The notes under the pieces were generated by a model. It saw nothing but the letters and a program-made list of their open reading frames with translations. It made no database searches and was not told where the DNA came from. A program made the position numbers and the translations under genes. From positions 2,542,001 through 2,606,000 of the forward strand of contig NZ_AP025688.1 in NCBI RefSeq assembly GCF_023168325.1: 64,000 nucleotides of DNA, in the 5' to 3' direction. This DNA comes from Tsukamurella sp. PLM1. Lineage in GTDB: Bacteria > Actinomycetota > Actinomycetes > Mycobacteriales > Mycobacteriaceae. Shown one piece after another: positions 54,235 to 64,000 of the stretch (position 1 is its first letter; each line of letters begins with the position of its first letter).

Positions 54235-55892
54235 CTATTCGCTGACGACGGAGAGATCTCCTGAAGCGTGCTGCGCGCGCAACACCTTCTTGTCGAACTT
54301 CCCCACCGAGGTCTTCGGGACCTCGGCGATGAACGACCAGTTGTCCGGGATCTGCCACTTCGCGAACTTCCCCGCGAGGTGCTCGCGGAGCTCGGCGACG
54401 GTCACCGTCGAGCCCGGTTGGAGGACGACCGCCACGAGCGGGCGCTCGTCCCACTTCGGGTCGGGGACGCCGATCGCCACGGCCTCGAGCACCGCGGGGT
54501 GGGCCATGACCTCGTTCTCGAGCTCGACGGAGCTGATCCACTCGCCGCCGGACTTGATCACGTCCTTCGACCGATCCACCAGCGTGACGAAGCCGTCGGC
54601 GGTGAGCTTGCCGATGTCGCCGGTGCGGAGCCAACCGTCCTCGAACTTGTCCGCGCCGACCGGATCGGCGCCCTCGGGGCTGTAGTAGCTGCCGGTGATC
54701 CAAGGACCTCGGACCTGCACCTCGCCCTGCGATTCGCCGTCGGCGGGGACCACCTCGCCGAGATCGTCGACCAGCCGTCCCTGCACACCGGGCAGGAACC
54801 GGCCCTGCGTGTTCCGGTAGCGCCAGGCATCGTCGCCGGTCACGCCCGGGGTGGCCATGCGATGCTGGCCAGCGGCGAGGTCTCCGTCATCCCCCACGCC
54901 TGCACTACCTGCACGCCGTGCCGGTCGAGCGCCTGCGCGAGGCTCAGCGGCACCGCGGACCCGCCGCAGGCGATGTGCCGCAGGTGGCTGATGTCCTGCG
55001 GGTGCGTGGCGAGGTGGTTGACGATGCCGATCCACACGGCCGGTACCGCGGCCGAGATCGTCGGCTTCTCCTCGGCGAGCAGGCGCGTCATGGGCTCGGG
55101 CTGCAGGTACCGGTCGGGCAGGATCAGGGACGCGCCCGACATGAGGGCACCGAACGGCGTGCCCCAGCTCATGGCGTGGAACATCGGCACGATGGGCAGC
55201 ACCGTGTCGCTCGGGCCCATGCCGAGGCCGTAGCTCGCACACACCGCAGTGGAATGCAGCCATATGCTGCGGTGGCTGTACATCACCCCCTTGGGATCAC
55301 CCGTGGTCCCCGACGTGTAGCAGGCCGCCGCCGCGGCACGCTCGTCGATGTCCGGCCAGGCGTAGTCGTCGGACTGCGCGTCGAGCAGGTCGCGGTAGTC
55401 GTGCAGCTGAACCCCCGACGGCGCCTCGACCTGAGACTTGTCGCCGTCCACCACGATCACGTGCTCGATCGTGGTCATGCCGCCGATGGCGGCGTTGAGC
55501 TGCGGGATCAGGCTGCCGTCGGCGATGATCACCCGGTCCGCCGCATGGTTCGCGATGTAGGTGACCTGCTCCGGGAACAACCTGATGTTGATCGTGTGCA
55601 GCACGCTCCCCATCGCCGGGATCGCGACGTACGCGGTCATGTGCTCGTTGTTGTTCCACTGGAACGTGCCCACCCGGTCGCCCGGGACCACGCCGAGTGC
55701 CTTCAGCGCGTTCGCGAGGCGCGCGGCCTCGTGGCCCAGCTCGCGGAAGCTCATCCGGGTGGTCTTCTCGGGGGTCCAGGTGGCCACCTCCGCGGAGTCC
55801 GCGTACCAGGTGGTCGCGTGTCGGAGCAGCGTCGCCAGCGACAGGTGCTCGTCTTGCATGGTGGAGGTCAGGGGCAGGATCCGCTCGGGCAT
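54235..55892 (-). CDS. Fatty-acyl-CoA ligase (AMP-binding, medium/long chain), frameshifted
   Basis: An adenylate-forming enzyme of about 552 residues that activates carboxylic acids to acyl-CoA. P-loop [20 protein letters not shown], then [12 protein letters not shown]. Near 54850 a base is missing; the C-terminal half has [37 protein letters not shown], and [16 protein letters not shown] with the catalytic Lys. The overall match is to the FadD/medium-chain ligase group (long LEDIA-like start [19 protein letters not shown]). ATG 55890-55892 is chosen; another at 55908 is possible. The substrate is not known. Confidence 0.85.
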
Positions 55893-55955
55893 GGACCATA
55901 CGTACCGCATGCCCGACGGTCCGCGGCCCGGTTTGGCCGAGCTCGCCGGTCCCGC

Positions 55956-57754: not shown

Positions 57755-59107
57755 ATGGCCCGGCAGCTGCACCTCGGTGGATTCCAGATCGCCTCGCACG
57801 TCACGCATTCGCACGCCGCATGGCGGCACCCCGCGTCCGATCCGGCGTTCCTGACGCCCGAGTACTACCACCGGATCGGCCGGATCCTGGAGCGCGGCAC
57901 GTTCGACTTCCTGTTCTTCGCGGACCTGCTGTCGGTGCCCACGCGCTTCGGCGACGACATCGACGAATCGCTGCGCCGCGGAACCCAGGCGTCCGCCACG
58001 CTGGACCCGTCCATCGTGGCGGCGTCGATCGGGGCGGTGACCTCGCGACTGGGGATCGCGATCACCAAGTCCACCACGTACTTCCACCCGTTCGAGCTGG
58101 CGCGGATCCTCTCCAGCCTCGACCATGTCACGCGCGGCAGGATCGCGTGGAACATCGTGACCTCGCTGAGCCAGTCGGAGGCGCTCAACTTCGGGCACGA
58201 CGAGCACCTGGAGCACGACCTGCGGTACGTCCGGGCGCAGGAGTTCGTGGAGACCGCCGTGGAGCTGTGGGCGTCGTGGGAGCCCGGGGCGCTGGTGCAG
58301 GACAAGGAGTCCGGCGTGTTCGCGGATCCGGCCCGGATCCACGCGGTGTCGCGCGATTCCGAGCATTTCCGCACCCGCGGTCCGCTGCCGACGCCGCGGT
58401 CGCCGCAGGGCCGGCCGGTGCTGATCCAGGCCGGATCGTCGAGCCGGGGCAAGGATTTCGCGGCGCAGTGGGCCGAGGCGATCTTTGAGATCGACCCGAC
58501 GCCCGAGGGCCGGCGGGCCTACTACGACGACGTGAAGTCGCGGGCCGTGAACTTCGGCCGGAACCCCGACCACGTGAAGATCTTCCCCTCGTTCATCCCG
58601 TTCGTGGGCGAGACGGAGTCGATCGCGCGCGAGAAGCAGGCGTTCCACAACGAGTTGGCCGACCCGATCTCCGGGCTCATCACTCTGTCCGTGCACACCG
58701 ATCACGACTTCTCGCAGTACGACCTGGACAAGCCCGTCGCGGACGTGACGGTGAGCGGCACGCAGGGGCTGTTCGACGTGGCCCGACGCTTGTCCGAGCG
58801 CGACAACCTGACGCTGCGCGACATCGGCAAGCTGTACGCGGAGGGCGTGCTGCTCCCCCAGTTCGTGGGCACCGCCTCGGACATCGCCGATCAGATCGAG
58901 GAGGGGTTCACCGGCGGCGAGGCCGACGGCTACATCCTCTCGGCGGCCAGCTCGCCCGGCACGTTCAACGACTTCGTCGACTTCGTGGTGCCCGAACTGC
59001 GGCGCCGCGGGCTGTTCCGTCGCGAGTACGCCGGAACCACCCTGCGCGAGCACCTCGACCTGCCGGCCGATCCCTTCGCGCCGCGAGCGGTGGCGAAGGC
59101 CGGGTAG
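57755..59107 (+). CDS. Flavin-dependent monooxygenase, NtaA/DszA/SnaA family
   Basis: A luciferase-like (LLM) class oxygenase of 450 residues that uses FMNH2. It starts MARQLHLGGFQIASHVTHSH (ATG 57755). Typical blocks: YYHRIGRILERGTFDFLFFA, LARILSSLDHVTRGRIAWNI, RPVLIQAGSSSRGKDFAAQW and FVGTASDIADQIEEGFTGGE. Family members act on nitrilotriacetate, dibenzothiophene sulfone, alkanesulfonates and similar; the substrate is not deducible here. No flavin reductase gene is adjacent. Confidence 0.87.
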   Translation: MARQLHLGGFQIASHVTHSHAAWRHPASDPAFLTPEYYHRIGRILERGTFDFLFFADLLSVPTRFGDDIDESLRRGTQASATLDPSIVAASIGAVTSRLGIAITKSTTYFHPFELARILSSLDHVTRGRIAWNIVTSLSQSEALNFGHDEHLEHDLRYVRAQEFVETAVELWASWEPGALVQDKESGVFADPARIHAVSRDSEHFRTRGPLPTPRSPQGRPVLIQAGSSSRGKDFAAQWAEAIFEIDPTPEGRRAYYDDVKSRAVNFGRNPDHVKIFPSFIPFVGETESIAREKQAFHNELADPISGLITLSVHTDHDFSQYDLDKPVADVTVSGTQGLFDVARRLSERDNLTLRDIGKLYAEGVLLPQFVGTASDIADQIEEGFTGGEADGYILSAASSPGTFNDFVDFVVPELRRRGLFRREYAGTTLREHLDLPADPFAPRAVAKAG

Positions 59108-59171: not shown

Positions 59172-59531
59172 TCAGAATTCAGCGAGTGGCCGCCCGTTCT
59201 TCTTCGCCCACCGCCACCGAAGTGCTTGCGGCGCAGGTCGATCCTTCTTCGCCTTCGGAGTCGTCAGCTCGGTCAGGTTCTCGTACTCCGTGCCGACGAG
59301 TTTGGGATCCACCTCGACGCGATTCCTAGATCCGATTCTGATCAGCGATCGATCGAACAGGCGGTGAACATCGGCGCGGAGCAATATCCCGTTCGACGTA
59401 TCGTTCACACCGCCGGACCTCCATTCGATGATGTGAGCAGCCTCAAGCGATTCCTCAGCGGCGGTGCCGGTGAGGGCACACTCACCGCCGTACGATGCAA
59501 GCAGACGATCGCGGAATTCGTCCTGCCCCAT
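59172..59531 (-). CDS. HNH endonuclease domain, likely the C-terminal half of an EVE-HNH restriction enzyme
   Basis: 119 residues opening exactly at the nuclease domain: MGQDEFRDRLLASYGGECAL, then the HNH core AHIIEWRSGGVNDTSNGILL and ADVHRLFDRSLIRIG, with the His, Asn and His of the beta-beta-alpha-metal fold. It lies in the same reading frame as the EVE-like ORF upstream, separated only by a TAG at 59544-59546 and the codons for VASR, so the two were probably one protein. Domain order and context point to cutting of modified DNA. Confidence 0.75.
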   Translation of the reverse strand: MGQDEFRDRLLASYGGECALTGTAAEESLEAAHIIEWRSGGVNDTSNGILLRADVHRLFDRSLIRIGSRNRVEVDPKLVGTEYENLTELTTPKAKKDRPAPQALRWRWAKKNGRPLAEF

Positions 59532-59543
59532 CCGCGAGGCGAC

Positions 59544-60073
59544 CTACGCCAGACGCTTCGCCCTGGCTTCCTCGGTGCCGTCGTGGGTGAGAACGTCACT
59601 GATCTGCGGGCCATCCAGCACTGGCGTGAGATCCAGTGCAGGCAGGTAGAAGGCCTCGGCGAGTAGGTTCTCGGCGTCACCCTCGAACGGCGTCGGAGAC
59701 TGAAACATGTAATTGGCTGATCCAGCCCCGAGTGCAGCGCGGATCTCGGCTGGCAGCACCTCACGGACAGGAGTAACACTCACCGGATCCATGAGGACTC
59801 GATAGTGGTATTCGAAGGATTCAGGCGTATCCCAGAACGGCTCACGGTCGTTGTGCAGCACCTTCCCAGCTCCATCTCGGAGAGCGAAGGTCGCCGCAGT
59901 GGCACAGAACATGCCGACGAGCGAGCCGCCACCCCCGTTGCGGAATACGATCCGGTCGTTCGGATTGATCGGAACCTTCCAGCGCTTGTTCGCGAAATCC
60001 CAAACCCCTTCTCCAGGGCGTATTGGAGATGCTGCGGATATTCTTCGTTGATCGTCACCAGCCACGCCGTCAT
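59544..60073 (-). CDS. EVE-like modified-base-binding domain, frameshifted, stop-separated from HNH
   Basis: About 176 residues. It starts MTAWLVTINEEYPQHLQYAL (ATG 60071-60073). Near 60005 one G is missing, after which WDFANKRWKVPINPNDRIVF continues with GGGSLVGMFCATAATFALRD and ESFEYHYRVLMDPVSV; this order (W-x-basic core, DxIVF, SLVGxF, YRVxMDPV) is that of the EVE/PUA-like fold that reads modified cytosines. After RAKRLA a TAG ends the frame, followed in frame by the HNH nuclease. EVE-HNH proteins are known type IV restriction enzymes; the fold assignment is from recognition only. Confidence 0.65.
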
Positions 60074-60154
60074 CGCCCTTGCGCCCTTTCGGGTTTCGCA
60101 ACGGGTGGAGGCGTGTCCTACACGGAAGCCTGTCGGGCCGAGCTCGTTTCGTCT

Positions 60155-62025
60155 CTACTGGTGCACGAGGCGCCGGAGCGCCTCGCGGGTCTCTTCGTCG
60201 GTGGAGTACAGAACGGTGCCGACCATGCCTCGGGTCAGCAGCACCTTGTAGGTGTTGCGGATCAGCAGGTCGAACCGTACGTCGGTGAGGTTCTTCTTCG
60301 ATTTCAGGCTGGGATCCCGGTTCTCGGCGCGCTGCACCACGAACCGCCCGTCCCGGTACACCAGGTCCGGGCCGAGGATCACTCCGCTCCAGTCGTATTC
60401 GAAGCCCTGCGCGGTGTACACGCAGCCCACCTGGCCGAAGCCGCCGTCCTCAGTGGCCCACAGCTGCGACGGCGGGACGTCGCCCATCCGCCTGTCTGAC
60501 TTGGAGTTCCACGGCCGGGCCCAGTCGCCGATCGTCACGTCGGGCACCAGGGTCCGCTCCGGTGTCGGATCGCTCCACGGCCAGCAGTAGCCGGCTGTCA
60601 TCCGCGCCGAATAGCCCTTGTCCCGCTGCTCGTCCAGCATCCGCTCCAACTCCCACGGAGTCTCGGCGACGCGCACCTCGAAGCCGTCGTCGCCGGTCCA
60701 TCGCCACGGCTTGCGCTCGCCCAGCCCCACCAGGTCGACCGCCCACTCGACGTACCGTTCGCTTCCGCCGCACCGGAACTGGTCGTCGAGCGGGATGTGC
60801 ATCGTCTCGAGCCCGAGCGACGCCGCGTACGCGCGGATCTGCCCGAGCGACCCGAGCTCTCCCGGGCGCACCACCTGATGCTCGTCGAGCAGGAACAGCG
60901 GAACCCGTGCGGCCGCGATCAATTCGTCGACCTGTGGTCGCCCGGTCCGGTCCGCGGCACGGGTGTACCGGTTCGCGGACGTCTCCCGGATCCGGTGCGC
61001 CTCATCGAGGATCAGCACGTCCAGCCCGTTCCGGTCTGCAGCGACGAACTGGTTGAAGTACTTGAACATGGCCTTGACCCGCGGCGCCCGCGCCCCGCCA
61101 CCTGCCGCAGCGTGGTGGTGAACGACCGGGAACCCGTGGCGTGCAGCACCGTCCGGCCCCGTCGGGCGAGGTCACCGAGCAGGGCGAGCGCGATCGCACT
61201 CTTGCCGCTCCCGGGCCCGCCCGTCACCACCAGGACGCGTTTGACGTCCGCCGCGCGGGCCCGCTCCACGTCGTGCAGCACTAGGTCCACCGCGAGCCGT
61301 TGGTTCCCGAGCAGGTGGAACACTTGTCGCTCCCGGACCTCCTCGGCCGCGACGGCCAGCAACTGCTGCGACGGCGCCGCGGGCGAGTTCAGCAGGACGT
61401 CGGCCGCGTAGCCCGACGGTGCCCCCGGCCTCAGCCGGGTCCGTAGGTAGTCGAGCATCGCGTCGGTATCGGCGCCGGTGAACAACCGTCCCGCGGGGCT
61501 CGCCGGGTATTCCGCCAGGTCCGCGACCACGCCGGGGTCGTGCACGTTGTGCAGGTAGGCGATGCCGGCCAGCGGATCGGGTTGGTCGCGCAGGGCGCGG
61601 GCGAAGTCGCCGAGGTACTCGCAGTATCCCGCCACCTGCGCCACCGGATGCAACAGCGGGCCGCCCAGGTGCGGCACCGTCACCATCGCGGGGTCCCCCT
61701 CGAACGCCGTGGCCGAGGACCACTGCTTGAGCTCCACCACCACGTACGACGGCGCCCCGGTCGCGGGATGGACACCGGCGAGCACCACGTCGGCGCGACG
61801 CGAGGAGAGCGGGAGCTTGTACTCGATCAGCATCTCGACGTTGCCGAGGCCGCCGTGGCGCAGGTCCGCCGCGAATGCTGGAAGGCTCTTCCCCCAAGAT
61901 CGCTGCTCCGCGTCGCCGACGGTGATCCCGCGTTCGAACAGCATCCGCTCCAGCAGCTTCTCCACGAGCGACTCCGAGGTGTACTCCTCGAGCAGCCGGT
62001 TCGCGGTGACCCGCAACAACGTCAC
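60155..62025 (-). CDS. PD-(D/E)XK nuclease-DUF2075 helicase fusion, frameshifted
   Basis: About 624 residues. The N-terminal third has a nuclease-like pattern: EYKLPLSSRRADVVLAGVHP with the Asp, and SYVVVELKQW with the E-x-K pair. Then a P-loop helicase: Walker A VTGGPGSGKSAIALALLGDL and SRSFTTTLRQV. After a break near 61088 (one G missing) come Walker B GLDVLILDEAHRIRE, QFRCGGSERYVEWAV, and a final helicase block YTAQGFEYDWSGVILGPDLV with RNTYKVLLTRGM. These are the marks of DUF2075 (Schlafen-like) proteins. Acts on nucleic acid; a defence role is suggested by its neighbours. Confidence 0.75.
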
Positions 62026-62292
62026 GCCAGAATCCCCCTGGGCAGCACGAATGATCGTGCGGAGGGGATCTGCCCTGAGCGGGAGTTCCGTCGAACCGCT
62101 GCCGACGAGACTACCTCGCCGGACGAGCGCCGTCGCCGGGGATCAAAACGTATCGGTGAGGCGAAGAGTGCTCGGCGGCTTGTCGGCGAACCTCCGGGAC
62201 TGAAGATCAGTGGCGCACGAGGACGCGCCCGAGCGATGATCCATCCGTACGAAAGCCTCAACAGAGCACCACGACCGGGAAGGACTTTCACG

Positions 62293-62739
62293 ATGCGAGT
62301 CATCGACTCGTTCCGCGGGGATCACCTCTTCCTCTCGAACTTCTATCCAACCCGCGTCCTGTTCCGAGGCCGCGAGTTCCCCACGGCCGAACACGCTTTC
62401 ATGTCAGCGAAGACCACGGACGAACGCAGCATCGAACTCATCCGGACCGCTCCCACTCCTGCGGAGGCGAAACGGATCGGCCGCTCGGTCACGCTGGTCG
62501 ACGACTGGGACCGCATCCGGTTCGACGTCATGGCCGACGTGCTCGCCGCCAAGTTCGACGACGCCGAGCTCGCGCGGCTTCTCGTCGACACCGGCGGCGC
62601 GCTGCTGATCGAGGGCAACTCCTGGCACGACCAGGTCTGGGGATCGTGCACGTGCGACAGACACCGGCGGATCGACGGCGACAACGCGCTCGGCGTGCTG
62701 CTGATGAACGAACGCATACAGCAGAAGTTCGTCCTGTAG
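62293..62739 (+). CDS. NADAR family protein (YbiA-like, DUF1768)
   Basis: 148 residues, full length. It starts MRVIDSFRGDHLFLSNFYPT (ATG 62293, GGAAGGA upstream). The family motifs are present in order: FPTAEHAFMSAKTTDERS, AKRIGRSVTLVDDWDRIRFD, VMADVLAAKF, TGGALLIEGNSWHDQVWGSC and NALGVLLMNERI. Members remove riboflavin intermediates (YbiA) or ADP-ribose from nucleotides, and some partner ADP-ribosyltransferase toxins. Divergent from the DUF2075 gene; the 267-base region between them (62026-62292) holds no further gene. Confidence 0.85.
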   Translation: MRVIDSFRGDHLFLSNFYPTRVLFRGREFPTAEHAFMSAKTTDERSIELIRTAPTPAEAKRIGRSVTLVDDWDRIRFDVMADVLAAKFDDAELARLLVDTGGALLIEGNSWHDQVWGSCTCDRHRRIDGDNALGVLLMNERIQQKFVL

Positions 62740-62799
62740 GAATCCGCCCCGTCCGTCTCCAGGGCGACCGGGCCGAACTTGTCGGTCTCCCGTGCGACC

Positions 62800-64000
62800 A
62801 TGGCAGGCGTGACGGCAGAAGAGGAGCTCGACAGCGCCGGCGAGCCCGCGGAGCAGGCGCTTCGCCCGTTCGCGCACGTCCACGCCGCGAACGCACACCT
62901 CTACCGGCGGGTGATGGGCGCGTTCGCGACCGCCAAACGACGCTTCACCATTCATCTCCGGCCAGAGGACGTCCTCGATCACCTCACGGCGACCGGGGAC
63001 GATCCGCCGGACCAGGGGGTGGTGGTAGACGCCCTCACCAAGCTCGAGGAGTGGGGCAACCTCCGGGCGGATCCGGATACCAGCCGGGTGACGACCGTCG
63101 AGGACTTCCACCGGGCCCGCTACCTGTATCAGATGACCCGCGAGGGGGCGGCAGCCGAGGCGGCGCTCACCGCCTACGACGAGGCGTTGGGCCGCCGAGG
63201 CGCCCTCCAGCGGGTCGCACTCAGCGACATCGCGGCGCAGCTGCGGTCCCTTCTCGCGCTCGCGCGGGCCGCCGAGTCCGACGAGGCGGTCGCCTACCTC
63301 ACCTTCGAGTCGCTGGCCACGCGGTTTGATGAGCTCGCGGACAACGCTCAGTCGTTCATGGCCTCGCTGCAGCGCACGATCGACCTGCACGATGCCGAGA
63401 TCGAGGCCTTCCTGGCCTACAAGGACCGCCTGATCGACTACCTGGAGCAGTTCATCAAGGACCTGGTGTCCACCGGCGCGGAGATCGCGAACCTGATCCA
63501 GCAGCTCGACGAGGCCGGTGTCGGCCGCCTCCTCGACGACGTCGCCCACCGCGCCGGCCGCGACATCGCGCCGGACGAGACGGAGGACTTCGCCGAGCGC
63601 GAGTTCGCGCGCCAGCGGCTCCTCTGGGCCGAGCGCTGGGCCGGATTTCACGACTGGTTCCTCAACTCCCCCGGCCATCCCAGCCAGTCGTCGCTGCTGC
63701 GCACCCAGGCCCGGGCGGCGATTCCCCGGCTGCTGCGGGTGGTATCGGTGCTCAACGACCGACGCACCGGCCGGTCGGACAGGTCGGCCGATTTCCACGC
63801 GCTCGCGGTCTGGTTCGCCGAGGCGCCGGACGAGGAGGCGATACACCGCCTGTGGCGGGCGGCGTTCGGGTTGCAGTCCTCACGGCACCTCACCGTCGAT
63901 GCGGACACCCTCGAAGCGCGGGACGCCGCGCCCGTGGCAGCGTCCGTCTCGTGGACCGCGGCGCCGCCCATCGAGATCAGCCCCCGCCTGCGCCAGACCG
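62800..64000 (+). CDS. jetA: JetA-type subunit of a type II Wadjet system (TIGR02677/DUF2397), cut by window edge
   Basis: At least 400 residues, open to the window end. ATG 62800 (MAGVTAEEEL) or GTG 62809 could start it. The N-terminal block ALRPFAHVHAANAHLYRRVM, then RRFTIHLRPEDVLDHL, the EWGNLRADPDTSRVTTVEDF and RARYLYQMTREGAAAEAALT segments, and the helical QSFMASLQRTIDLHDAEIEA, are those of TIGR02677, the kleisin-like first gene of four-gene Wadjet systems that block plasmids and sense DNA with an SMC-like complex. JetB, JetC and JetD should follow outside the window. Confidence 0.75.
   Translation, partial: MAGVTAEEELDSAGEPAEQALRPFAHVHAANAHLYRRVMGAFATAKRRFTIHLRPEDVLDHLTATGDDPPDQGVVVDALTKLEEWGNLRADPDTSRVTTVEDFHRARYLYQMTREGAAAEAALTAYDEALGRRGALQRVALSDIAAQLRSLLALARAAESDEAVAYLTFESLATRFDELADNAQSFMASLQRTIDLHDAEIEAFLAYKDRLIDYLEQFIKDLVSTGAEIANLIQQLDEAGVGRLLDDVAHRAGRDIAPDETEDFAEREFARQRLLWAERWAGFHDWFLNSPGHPSQSSLLRTQARAAIPRLLRVVSVLNDRRTGRSDRSADFHALAVWFAEAPDEEAIHRLWRAAFGLQSSRHLTVDADTLEARDAAPVAASVSWTAAPPIEISPRLRQT

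Follow-up and report, generated by a model that had tools for sequence, protein, structure and literature searches.

A candidate leader RNA for a helicase–nuclease module in a variable defence hotspot of Tsukamurella

What holds together a cluster of nucleic-acid-targeting genes at one end of an otherwise metabolic stretch of chromosome, and what would keep its nucleases in check? The stretch in question, here called the window, comprises 64,000 nucleotides of Tsukamurella sp. PLM1 (contig NZ_AP025688.1, positions 2542001-2606000), whose genome is assembled as one contig of 4.39 Mb with 83.88% completeness. A preliminary description had placed a candidate defence island at the right end of the window and named four genes in it: a gene joining an EVE-like reader to an HNH nuclease (reader-HNH), a helicase, a NADAR gene and jetA, the first gene of a type II Wadjet system. 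Our joint reading, held with moderate confidence, is that an island in a defence hotspot carries a Wadjet II operon, a NADAR gene and a two-gene module of helicase and reader-HNH that would act against modified phage DNA, and that a leader RNA would silence this module. What this adds to the preliminary description is the RNA leader and an exchanged partner nuclease; we know of hardly any RNA switches dedicated to anti-phage genes. The module occupies the following positions, all on the minus strand.

62025..62100, minus: leader RNA, first copy, before the GTG start of the helicase gene
61012..62025, minus: PD-(D/E)XK-like N-terminal part and start of the helicase (Walker A), in another frame than the remainder (PF09848, E 3.5e-7)
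60155..61069, minus: C-terminal piece of the SLFN-g3 helicase (PF09848, E 6e-70)
60071..60142, minus: leader RNA, second copy, before the start codon of the reader-HNH gene
59544..60101, minus: middle of the reader-HNH gene (EVE-like reader), aligning with intact relatives of 288-337 aa
59172..59531, minus: HNH part of the reader-HNH gene (HNH_2 PF13391, E 3.6e-14; PADLOC HNH, E 3e-11)

A conserved leader before both genes

At the junction of helicase and partner gene, one 50-column block averages 90% identity among five species; the helicase blocks beside it reach 71-87% and the adjacent junction blocks 72 and 70%. The leader begins with an 18 nt motif that is exact in all five helicase-bearing genomes of the genus and was not found in the other 11, one mismatch allowed. 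Beyond the genus, the comparison drew on the best 80 named loci of at least 518 relatives and on 60 fetched loci. A scan of the fetched loci placed the element mostly ~70-105 nt before the helicase start, with a second copy before a reader-HNH gene or a second helicase. Such second helicases, each adjacent to the first and each with a separate leader copy, occur in L159, L177, L189, L196, L205, L208, L209 and L210, as tandem or converging pairs.

Alignment A4 was assembled from 135 leaders with an in-frame start, reduced by length and similarity; L200 was omitted, some 3' ends were changed by hand and the window leader was added, giving 72 rows. In these rows two helices stand out, stem P2 (RGGC-U-UCC with GGA-CAY-GCCY) and hairpin P3 (GCACGA/UCGUGC), of which P2 was first named by eye from the aligned sequences and then counted. 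Paired cells make up 94.0% of P2 and P3 in the 72 leaders, against 26-47% when the partner strand was slid, and 93.0% once pair 18/56 is added. Double changes were seen at seven pairs and in 33 cells, compared with 6.9 cells after shuffling; none of 500 shuffles reached the pairing percentage or the cell count, and one of 500 reached the number of pairs. Leaders of partner genes, 15 of which were selected by the 5' motif, all retain the P2 hairpin as AGGC/GCCU and differ in their 3' half, and an insert of variable length separates the two leader halves. By these sequence comparisons the leader qualifies as a conserved structured RNA of cis-regulatory type with covarying stems, a case that is weaker when the changes are counted on a tree. 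Two other descriptions of the fold were rejected: P1, a small hairpin inside the 5' motif, as the main fold (86.5% paired vs 94.1% for the first part of P2, with P2 retained 6 to 0 in conflict column 13 and 12 to 1 in column 15), and the fold that RNAalifold alone draws from a MAFFT alignment, which has only nine pairs and lacks P2.

A covariance model built from A4, termed R1, matches the first copy in the window with 57.3 bits (E 6.5e-8), partly by construction, as that leader is itself a row of A4. The second copy scores 34.9 bits (E 0.0013), within reach of some antisense matches, and is called a leader because it has the exact 5' motif, the expected place and the core common to all 15 partner leaders. 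Low R1 scores alone prove little, because the antisense strands of true leaders also match, as at L203 5946-6024 (36.1 bits) and L152 5948-6024 (31.3 bits), both on the minus strand.

The distribution of this RNA was surveyed together with that of the helicase, the two surveys being taken as covering the same genome sets, given their equal numbers; searches over 40 genomes used stricter filters, at the loss of weak matches. Among 397 genomes of the order, R1 matches 78 and the helicase is found in 95, with both in 75, the helicase only in 20 and the RNA only in three, one of them an orphan and two with a decayed helicase. A Fisher test on these counts takes related genomes as independent. Among 394 genomes of the class, R1 matches 43 and the helicase is found in 58; both occur in 42, and the remaining matched genome has a decayed helicase. 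Outside the order, 37 of the 37 R1-matched genomes of the class carry the helicase. As A4 rows come partly from surveyed genomes, the RNA stands before those helicases by construction, which does not hold for its scarcity elsewhere. Directly behind the RNA lies the helicase in 60 of the 60 best loci inspected (the best 30 per RNA search, to which six odd cases were added), and R1 matches at E <= 0.1 in 78 of the best 80 named loci, all except L174 and L195. Twenty of the 78 matched genomes of the order were typed out for position: the RNA is on the sense strand and, relative to the aligned helicase start, its 3' end lies at -2 to +7 nt in 17 of them and at a distance of 43-53 nt in three.

What follows the leader was also counted for copies that match a strict version of the 5' motif, within fetched loci chosen for their helicase. 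The 75 copies precede the helicase (54), HNH-like genes (16) or something else (five, namely an intact reader-HNH that escaped the HNH pattern in L034, a truncated reader in L077, a remnant in L072, and the proteins of L126 and L194). Behind the leader of L194 lies a 426-residue protein matching PADLOC mREase_IV (E 8.4e-62); that of L126 (1161-3368) precedes a 735-residue protein with an EVE-like start by eye, which matches mREase_IV at E 8.9e-11 and no Pfam family at E 0.5. Extra leaders near MazG-like genes were considered as MazG leaders, and this was rejected, as reader-type nucleases follow behind MazG in L087, L126, L188 and L194. Viral contigs gave 13 matches to a 17-mer, none with an RNA model match or a helicase; the bare 17-mer therefore occurs by chance in GC-rich DNA. 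Collectively, in the genomes surveyed the leader is nearly exclusive to the helicase and its partner nucleases. It thus marks the genes of one module in many Actinomycetes, including nucleases of unusual architecture that were spotted only by following it. In a separate case, L249 (819-1889, from the genome of L081), a 63.8-bit leader stands directly before a 331-residue protein followed by JetA; the protein has an AAHI HNH-like motif and a sub-cut-off Pfam match (E 0.13).

Searches against Rfam 15 gave no credible match for the window between 59 and 64 kb at E <= 1 or for four loci at E <= 0.5, and for two single leaders at E <= 10 the best matches lay far under the gathering threshold. An ssNA-helicase RNA motif is reportedly a candidate found upstream of helicase genes in a 2017 catalogue of 224 RNA candidates, a position that the present leader shares. 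The accessible part of a 2023 benchmark (PMC10044938) names the ssNA-helicase motif among new RNA families.

A near-constant helicase with an exchanged partner

The preliminary description had called the helicase a PD-(D/E)XK-DUF2075 protein. Its DUF2075 assignment, equivalent to PF09848, stands, but the gene is split by a frameshift near 61090 and the PD-(D/E)XK part was recognised by eye, with no Pfam family in that region in scans of the window helicase and its relatives. The C-terminal piece is 93, 87, 84 and 83% identical to the long-frame helicases of G009, G004, G008 and G011, respectively, and intact relatives have 623-624 residues; PF09848 matches the helicase of L032 at E 5.2e-83, far above cut-off. 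D79, E98, K100, Walker A (GGPGSGKS) and DEAH are invariant in 14 of 14 relatives, and D79, E98, K100, Q131 and Y135, read by eye, in 18 of 18 helicases. From these residues, in which we take D...ExK plus QxxxY to be a PD-(D/E)XK active site, the N-terminal part looks like a PD-(D/E)XK-like nuclease. The protein thus shares PF09848 with Walker A and DEAH with the Schlafen group 3/DUF2075 helicases and differs from them in the added N-terminal part. The Schlafen core nuclease family is not among its Pfam matches, so it is not placed with the Schlafens proper, and the helicase profile matched nothing in PDB by sequence at E 0.01.

The reader-HNH gene was confirmed in its nuclease half, yet it is spread over several frames and does not form the single gene that had been described. 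Its start is the ATG at 60073-60071 (MTAWL...), in another frame than the 59544-60101 open reading frame (ORF), whose own TTG is not the start; an in-frame TAG (59546-59544) lies ahead of the HNH ORF. HNH_2 passes its cut-off both for the window ORF and for the four intact relatives in the genus. The EVE label fares less well: Pfam finds no EVE in the window piece, and PF01878 is matched only weakly, under gathering, in relatives (L032, E 0.0018; L133, E 6e-4). In its HNH half the reader-HNH profile matches VcaM4I (PDB 6yex, E 1.5e-11). With EVE-HNH endonucleases such as VcaM4I, as far as their description was accessible (PMC7897488), the protein shares the order of reader before HNH and an alignable HNH half; it differs in the weakly detected EVE fold, the helicase neighbour, the RNA leader and a reader that diverges strongly between close species.

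At intact loci of the genus the reader-HNH gene lies directly 3' of the helicase in four of four cases, beginning 55-73 nt after it and encoding 288-337 residues; in the window it occupies the same place in pieces. A same-strand ORF comes right after the helicase in 59 of the best 80 named loci, and reader-HNH is the only broad family among these downstream genes (11 of 59, with L141 and L157 lacking the EVE-like start). To judge by families and neighbours, the most likely role of the module is to restrict modified phage DNA. Such DNA would be recognised and cut by the reader-HNH protein, and the helicase-nuclease would unwind and degrade it from the break.

The two genes differ in how far they have diverged. 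In four species the helicases are 79-84% identical, while the reader halves share 27-36% and the HNH halves 32-46% (28-37% and 33-47% in another alignment). Partner halves within the genus are as divergent as those between genera, with means of 29 and 44%. As a control, MazG-like genes were compared at 31 loci, each carrying just one helicase and just one nearby MazG-like gene, and their identity tracks that of the helicase (Spearman 0.74), being 69-82% at a helicase identity of 80-86%. Fast evolution of the partner was rejected as an explanation, since the distance within the genus equals that between genera and MazG follows the helicase. Because the partner halves diverge while the helicase and the MazG control stay close, the partner nuclease is, as judged from the alignments, exchanged or diversified independently of a near-constant helicase. 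One pair of genera counts against constant swapping: between Serinicoccus and Ornithinimicrobium the partner halves are 87/74% identical at a helicase identity of 91%.

Published work touches on parts of this arrangement. A study of EVE genomic context reports EVE-HNH enzymes, and its main text, as far as accessible, makes no mention of DUF2075, Schlafen or MazG (PMC7641849); in the accessible part of another paper, Schlafen RNases are mentioned beside BREX (PMC12839542). In the literature covered, which took in few subscription papers and so leaves room for a prior description, no paper linked DUF2075 with MazG or with phage defence.

A predicted translational switch and its alternatives

A second partner of the C-rich P2 strand is the G-rich Shine-Dalgarno (SD) region (mean helix 5.5 vs 3.5 in shuffled sequence), and the SD lies a median of 8 nt from the start codon. 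At least one G of the SD region is paired to the C-strand at P > 0.5 in 71 of 72 leaders, and SD pairing exceeds the shuffled control in 64 of 66 (0.98 vs 0.86). This pairing and P2 are mutually exclusive and therefore have the anatomy of a translational switch, in which the leader is predicted to close the SD. Translational riboswitches and autoregulatory leaders likewise have a structured sense-strand leader, alternative pairings and predicted SD sequestration; the present RNA differs from them in the absence of a credible Rfam match and in being nearly exclusive to one module in the surveyed genomes.

Copies of one leader RNA would in this way keep both module genes translationally off. In the predicted default fold the C-rich strand is paired with the SD region just before the start codon, and the upstream RGGC-U-UCC/GGA-CAY-GCCY hairpin would compete for that same strand; were the hairpin stabilised by something, the ribosome site would open. 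The binder is most likely a protein of the module itself, because the RNA is found almost only before the helicase and its partner nucleases, with a phage-linked small molecule as second choice. The module's own protein would then autoregulate its synthesis, with relief or triggering during infection. An infection-sensing switch, closed in healthy cells and opened once the hairpin is stabilised by a phage signal or by titration of the helicase off its own leader, so that the helicase-nuclease and its partner nuclease would be made jointly and only under attack, is a tentative extension that we regard as possible but doubtful. If it were true, one RNA tag would serve as a plug-in socket for recombined type IV nucleases of different readers. 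The locus thus opens two testable questions, the silencing of costly restriction nucleases and the exchange of a reader-nuclease beside a constant helicase.

Several observations weigh against a leader-controlled module. On the side of the RNA, the P2 hairpin reaches P > 0.5 in only two of the 72 helicase leaders, so that folding energy alone does not favour it, and shuffled GC-rich sequence already has the high SD pairing given above. The mean folding z is -1.9, and folding of the partner leader of the window together with the sequence around it shows no unusual stability (z 0.33). Counted on the helicase tree, compensatory changes are few (concordant independent pairs 2.5, 4.5 and 1.8 vs 0.0-0.1 opposite), no single sign test on that tree is significant, and the small hairpin P1 shows covariation as well. 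R1 gives partner leaders 25-36 bits, overlapping its antisense matches on true leaders, and the helicase occurs without an RNA match in the 20 genomes of the order noted above and in 16 of 58 in the class. As for the module, its inferred role in defence is drawn from families and neighbours, and both of its genes are broken in the assembly of this genome. A reader-HNH gene lies within 700 bp of the helicase in only 14 of the best 80 named loci and four of the 60 fetched ones, and most helicase loci outside the genus lack one at that distance. A MazG-like gene (PF12643, PF03819) is found that close in about half of the loci (35 of the best 80 named, 30 of 60 fetched), a neighbour for which the proposed module does not account; L080, L084 and L118 are among the loci where this pyrophosphohydrolase neighbours the helicase.

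Some of these points lend themselves to other explanations. The MazG-like neighbour, together with the compact conserved hairpin, its asymmetric internal loop and the SD-sequestering platform, would suit a riboswitch for an infection-linked small molecule, for example a nucleotide removed by that pyrophosphohydrolase. We consider this unlikely, if less so than the alternatives that follow: the RNA accompanies the helicase (75 of 78 matched genomes in the order and every matched genome of the class outside it) and no copy was met before a metabolic gene, the best loci inspected all have the helicase directly behind it, and none of the four loci of the genus showed a MazG-like gene close to the helicase. 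The scarcity of close reader-HNH genes, and the fact that defence genes cluster in general, would also fit an ordinary defence island in which an unrelated helicase and a plain type IV restriction gene are neighbours by chance. With both genes standing behind one and the same leader in the genus, Gordonia, Rhodococcus and Williamsia, and likewise in Janibacter, Serinicoccus, Ornithinimicrobium and Humibacillus, such an accident is quite improbable. Still harder to credit is a DNA operator or promoter in place of an RNA. The 18 nt motif, exact in the helicase genomes of the genus and absent from the others, is what such an element would predict; compensatory changes in two stems, the variable-length insert between the halves, the sense orientation, the place at the start codon and partner leaders with a different 3' half yet the same hairpin are not.

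The broken genes raise a different alternative, namely genuine frame breaks that would leave this strain with neither a working module nor a working Wadjet system. Four genes (helicase, reader-HNH, jetB and jetC) are each split over frames in this assembly, and a relative (G003) has a helicase fossil with its leader at the same site. Yet the breaks are not peculiar to the island, an idea rejected because five flanking genes, out of 17 whose ortholog is intact in a relative, are likewise split; of the two island genes in the same test, the helicase is split and the NADAR gene intact. The breaks are therefore probably assembly errors rather than decay. With the completeness of only 83.88% and catalytic motifs retained in the pieces also speaking against dead genes, we hold that alternative to be rather improbable and keep to a leader-controlled module. 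Elsewhere in the window, at 54235-55910, gene content that is intact in relatives runs across two frames here.

The hotspot, the NADAR gene and the Wadjet II operon

Beyond the module, the island was followed with Pfam and PADLOC profile scans of its ORF translations and with two 20 kb stretches that begin 5 kb inside the right end of the window and run outward. The remaining features, all on the plus strand and in window numbering, are these.

57755..59107, plus: luciferase-like monooxygenase-type gene (named by eye), left flank and edge of the hotspot
62293..62739, plus: NADAR/YbiA-like gene (PF08719, E 1.6e-24; ORF with an earlier start 62197-62739)
62779..64000, continuing to 64440, plus: jetA, type II Wadjet (PADLOC JetA2, 7.7e-193)
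~64437-65679, plus: jetB in two frames (PADLOC JetB2, 1.9e-46 and 8.4e-84 for the two pieces)
~65676-69790, plus: jetC in three frames (PADLOC JetC2, 2.2e-222 and 4.6e-110 for two of three pieces)
~69786-71039, plus: jetD (PADLOC JetD2, 1.7e-133)

All four genes named at the outset are present on the strands first assigned to them, reader-HNH and helicase on minus, NADAR and jetA on plus. The reading as a defence island is borne out, with one correction of extent: the defence block does lie in 59172-64000, but it ends at ~71039, where the jetD ORF ends. The HNH gene falls in a restriction family, the helicase in a helicase family and the Jet genes in Wadjet families, none of which is a housekeeping one. 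Nor is the block fixed in relatives. Among 16 genomes of the genus, JetA is found in the source genome alone, the helicase in five with a 27-residue remnant in a sixth, and NADAR in five, two of them with fragments only. The window contains no tRNA.

Nine stretches from genus relatives were compared at this site, where the same slot is occupied by other defence genes. The monooxygenase-type flank gene is 94-95% identical in G001, G002, G003 and G008 and present as two pieces (94 and 91%) in G007. Like this gene, an acyl-CoA ligase gene of the flanks was named by eye. Reader-HNH and helicase fill the slot in G008 and in G004, which lacks the monooxygenase gene; in G009, with the right flank on the stretch, they are joined by BrxC, PglZ, BrxD and BrxHI. 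Mrr, NADAR, and a methylase and a restriction subunit of type I occupy it in G001; in G005, whose stretch includes the left flank, a type I restriction subunit does. The slot is nearly empty in G007 and G002, and likewise in G003, there with a helicase remnant; neither flank is present on the ninth stretch, a short contig from G011. The island is thus real and variable and lies in a genus-wide chromosomal defence hotspot. At the near-empty site of G003 (L036 10393-10960) the decayed helicase still has its leader RNA (36.2 bits), and in G001 a 300-residue protein without a Pfam or PADLOC family adjoins NADAR (L037 3231-4133).

The NADAR gene was identified correctly (PF08719), although a defence role is its weak point. 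It scores above the NCBIfam cut-off for the riboflavin-intermediate N-glycosidase family TIGR02464 (86.9 vs 73.7 bits) and under that of the NADAR anti-phage family (41.1 vs 240 bits), and its role in the island is uncertain for this reason. Among the Pfam and PADLOC matches of the scanned island proteins there is no DarT family, and hence no DarT-NADAR adjacency.

Extending the sequence beyond position 64000 placed jetB, jetC and jetD, as PADLOC Wadjet II families, to the right of jetA, as the preliminary description had anticipated. The part of jetA inside the window (62779-63999, plus) already matches DUF2397/JetA2 in PADLOC (E 7.3e-150). As in type II Wadjet, JetA2, JetB2, JetC2 and JetD2 stand in order in one operon; the difference is that jetB lies in two frames and jetC in three, in an assembly with frequent frame breaks. 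In jetC, Walker A is in the first piece and LDEAF, presumably Walker B, in a third frame, and JetD retains GDFDWYG, which we take to be Toprim-like. The Wadjet II operon is complete in content. JetA lies within ~5 kb of the helicase in five of 60 fetched loci and directly downstream of it in two. The adjacency thus recurs outside the genus: in L104 and L100, jetA follows the helicase on the same strand, with its start ~133 and 42 nt behind it.

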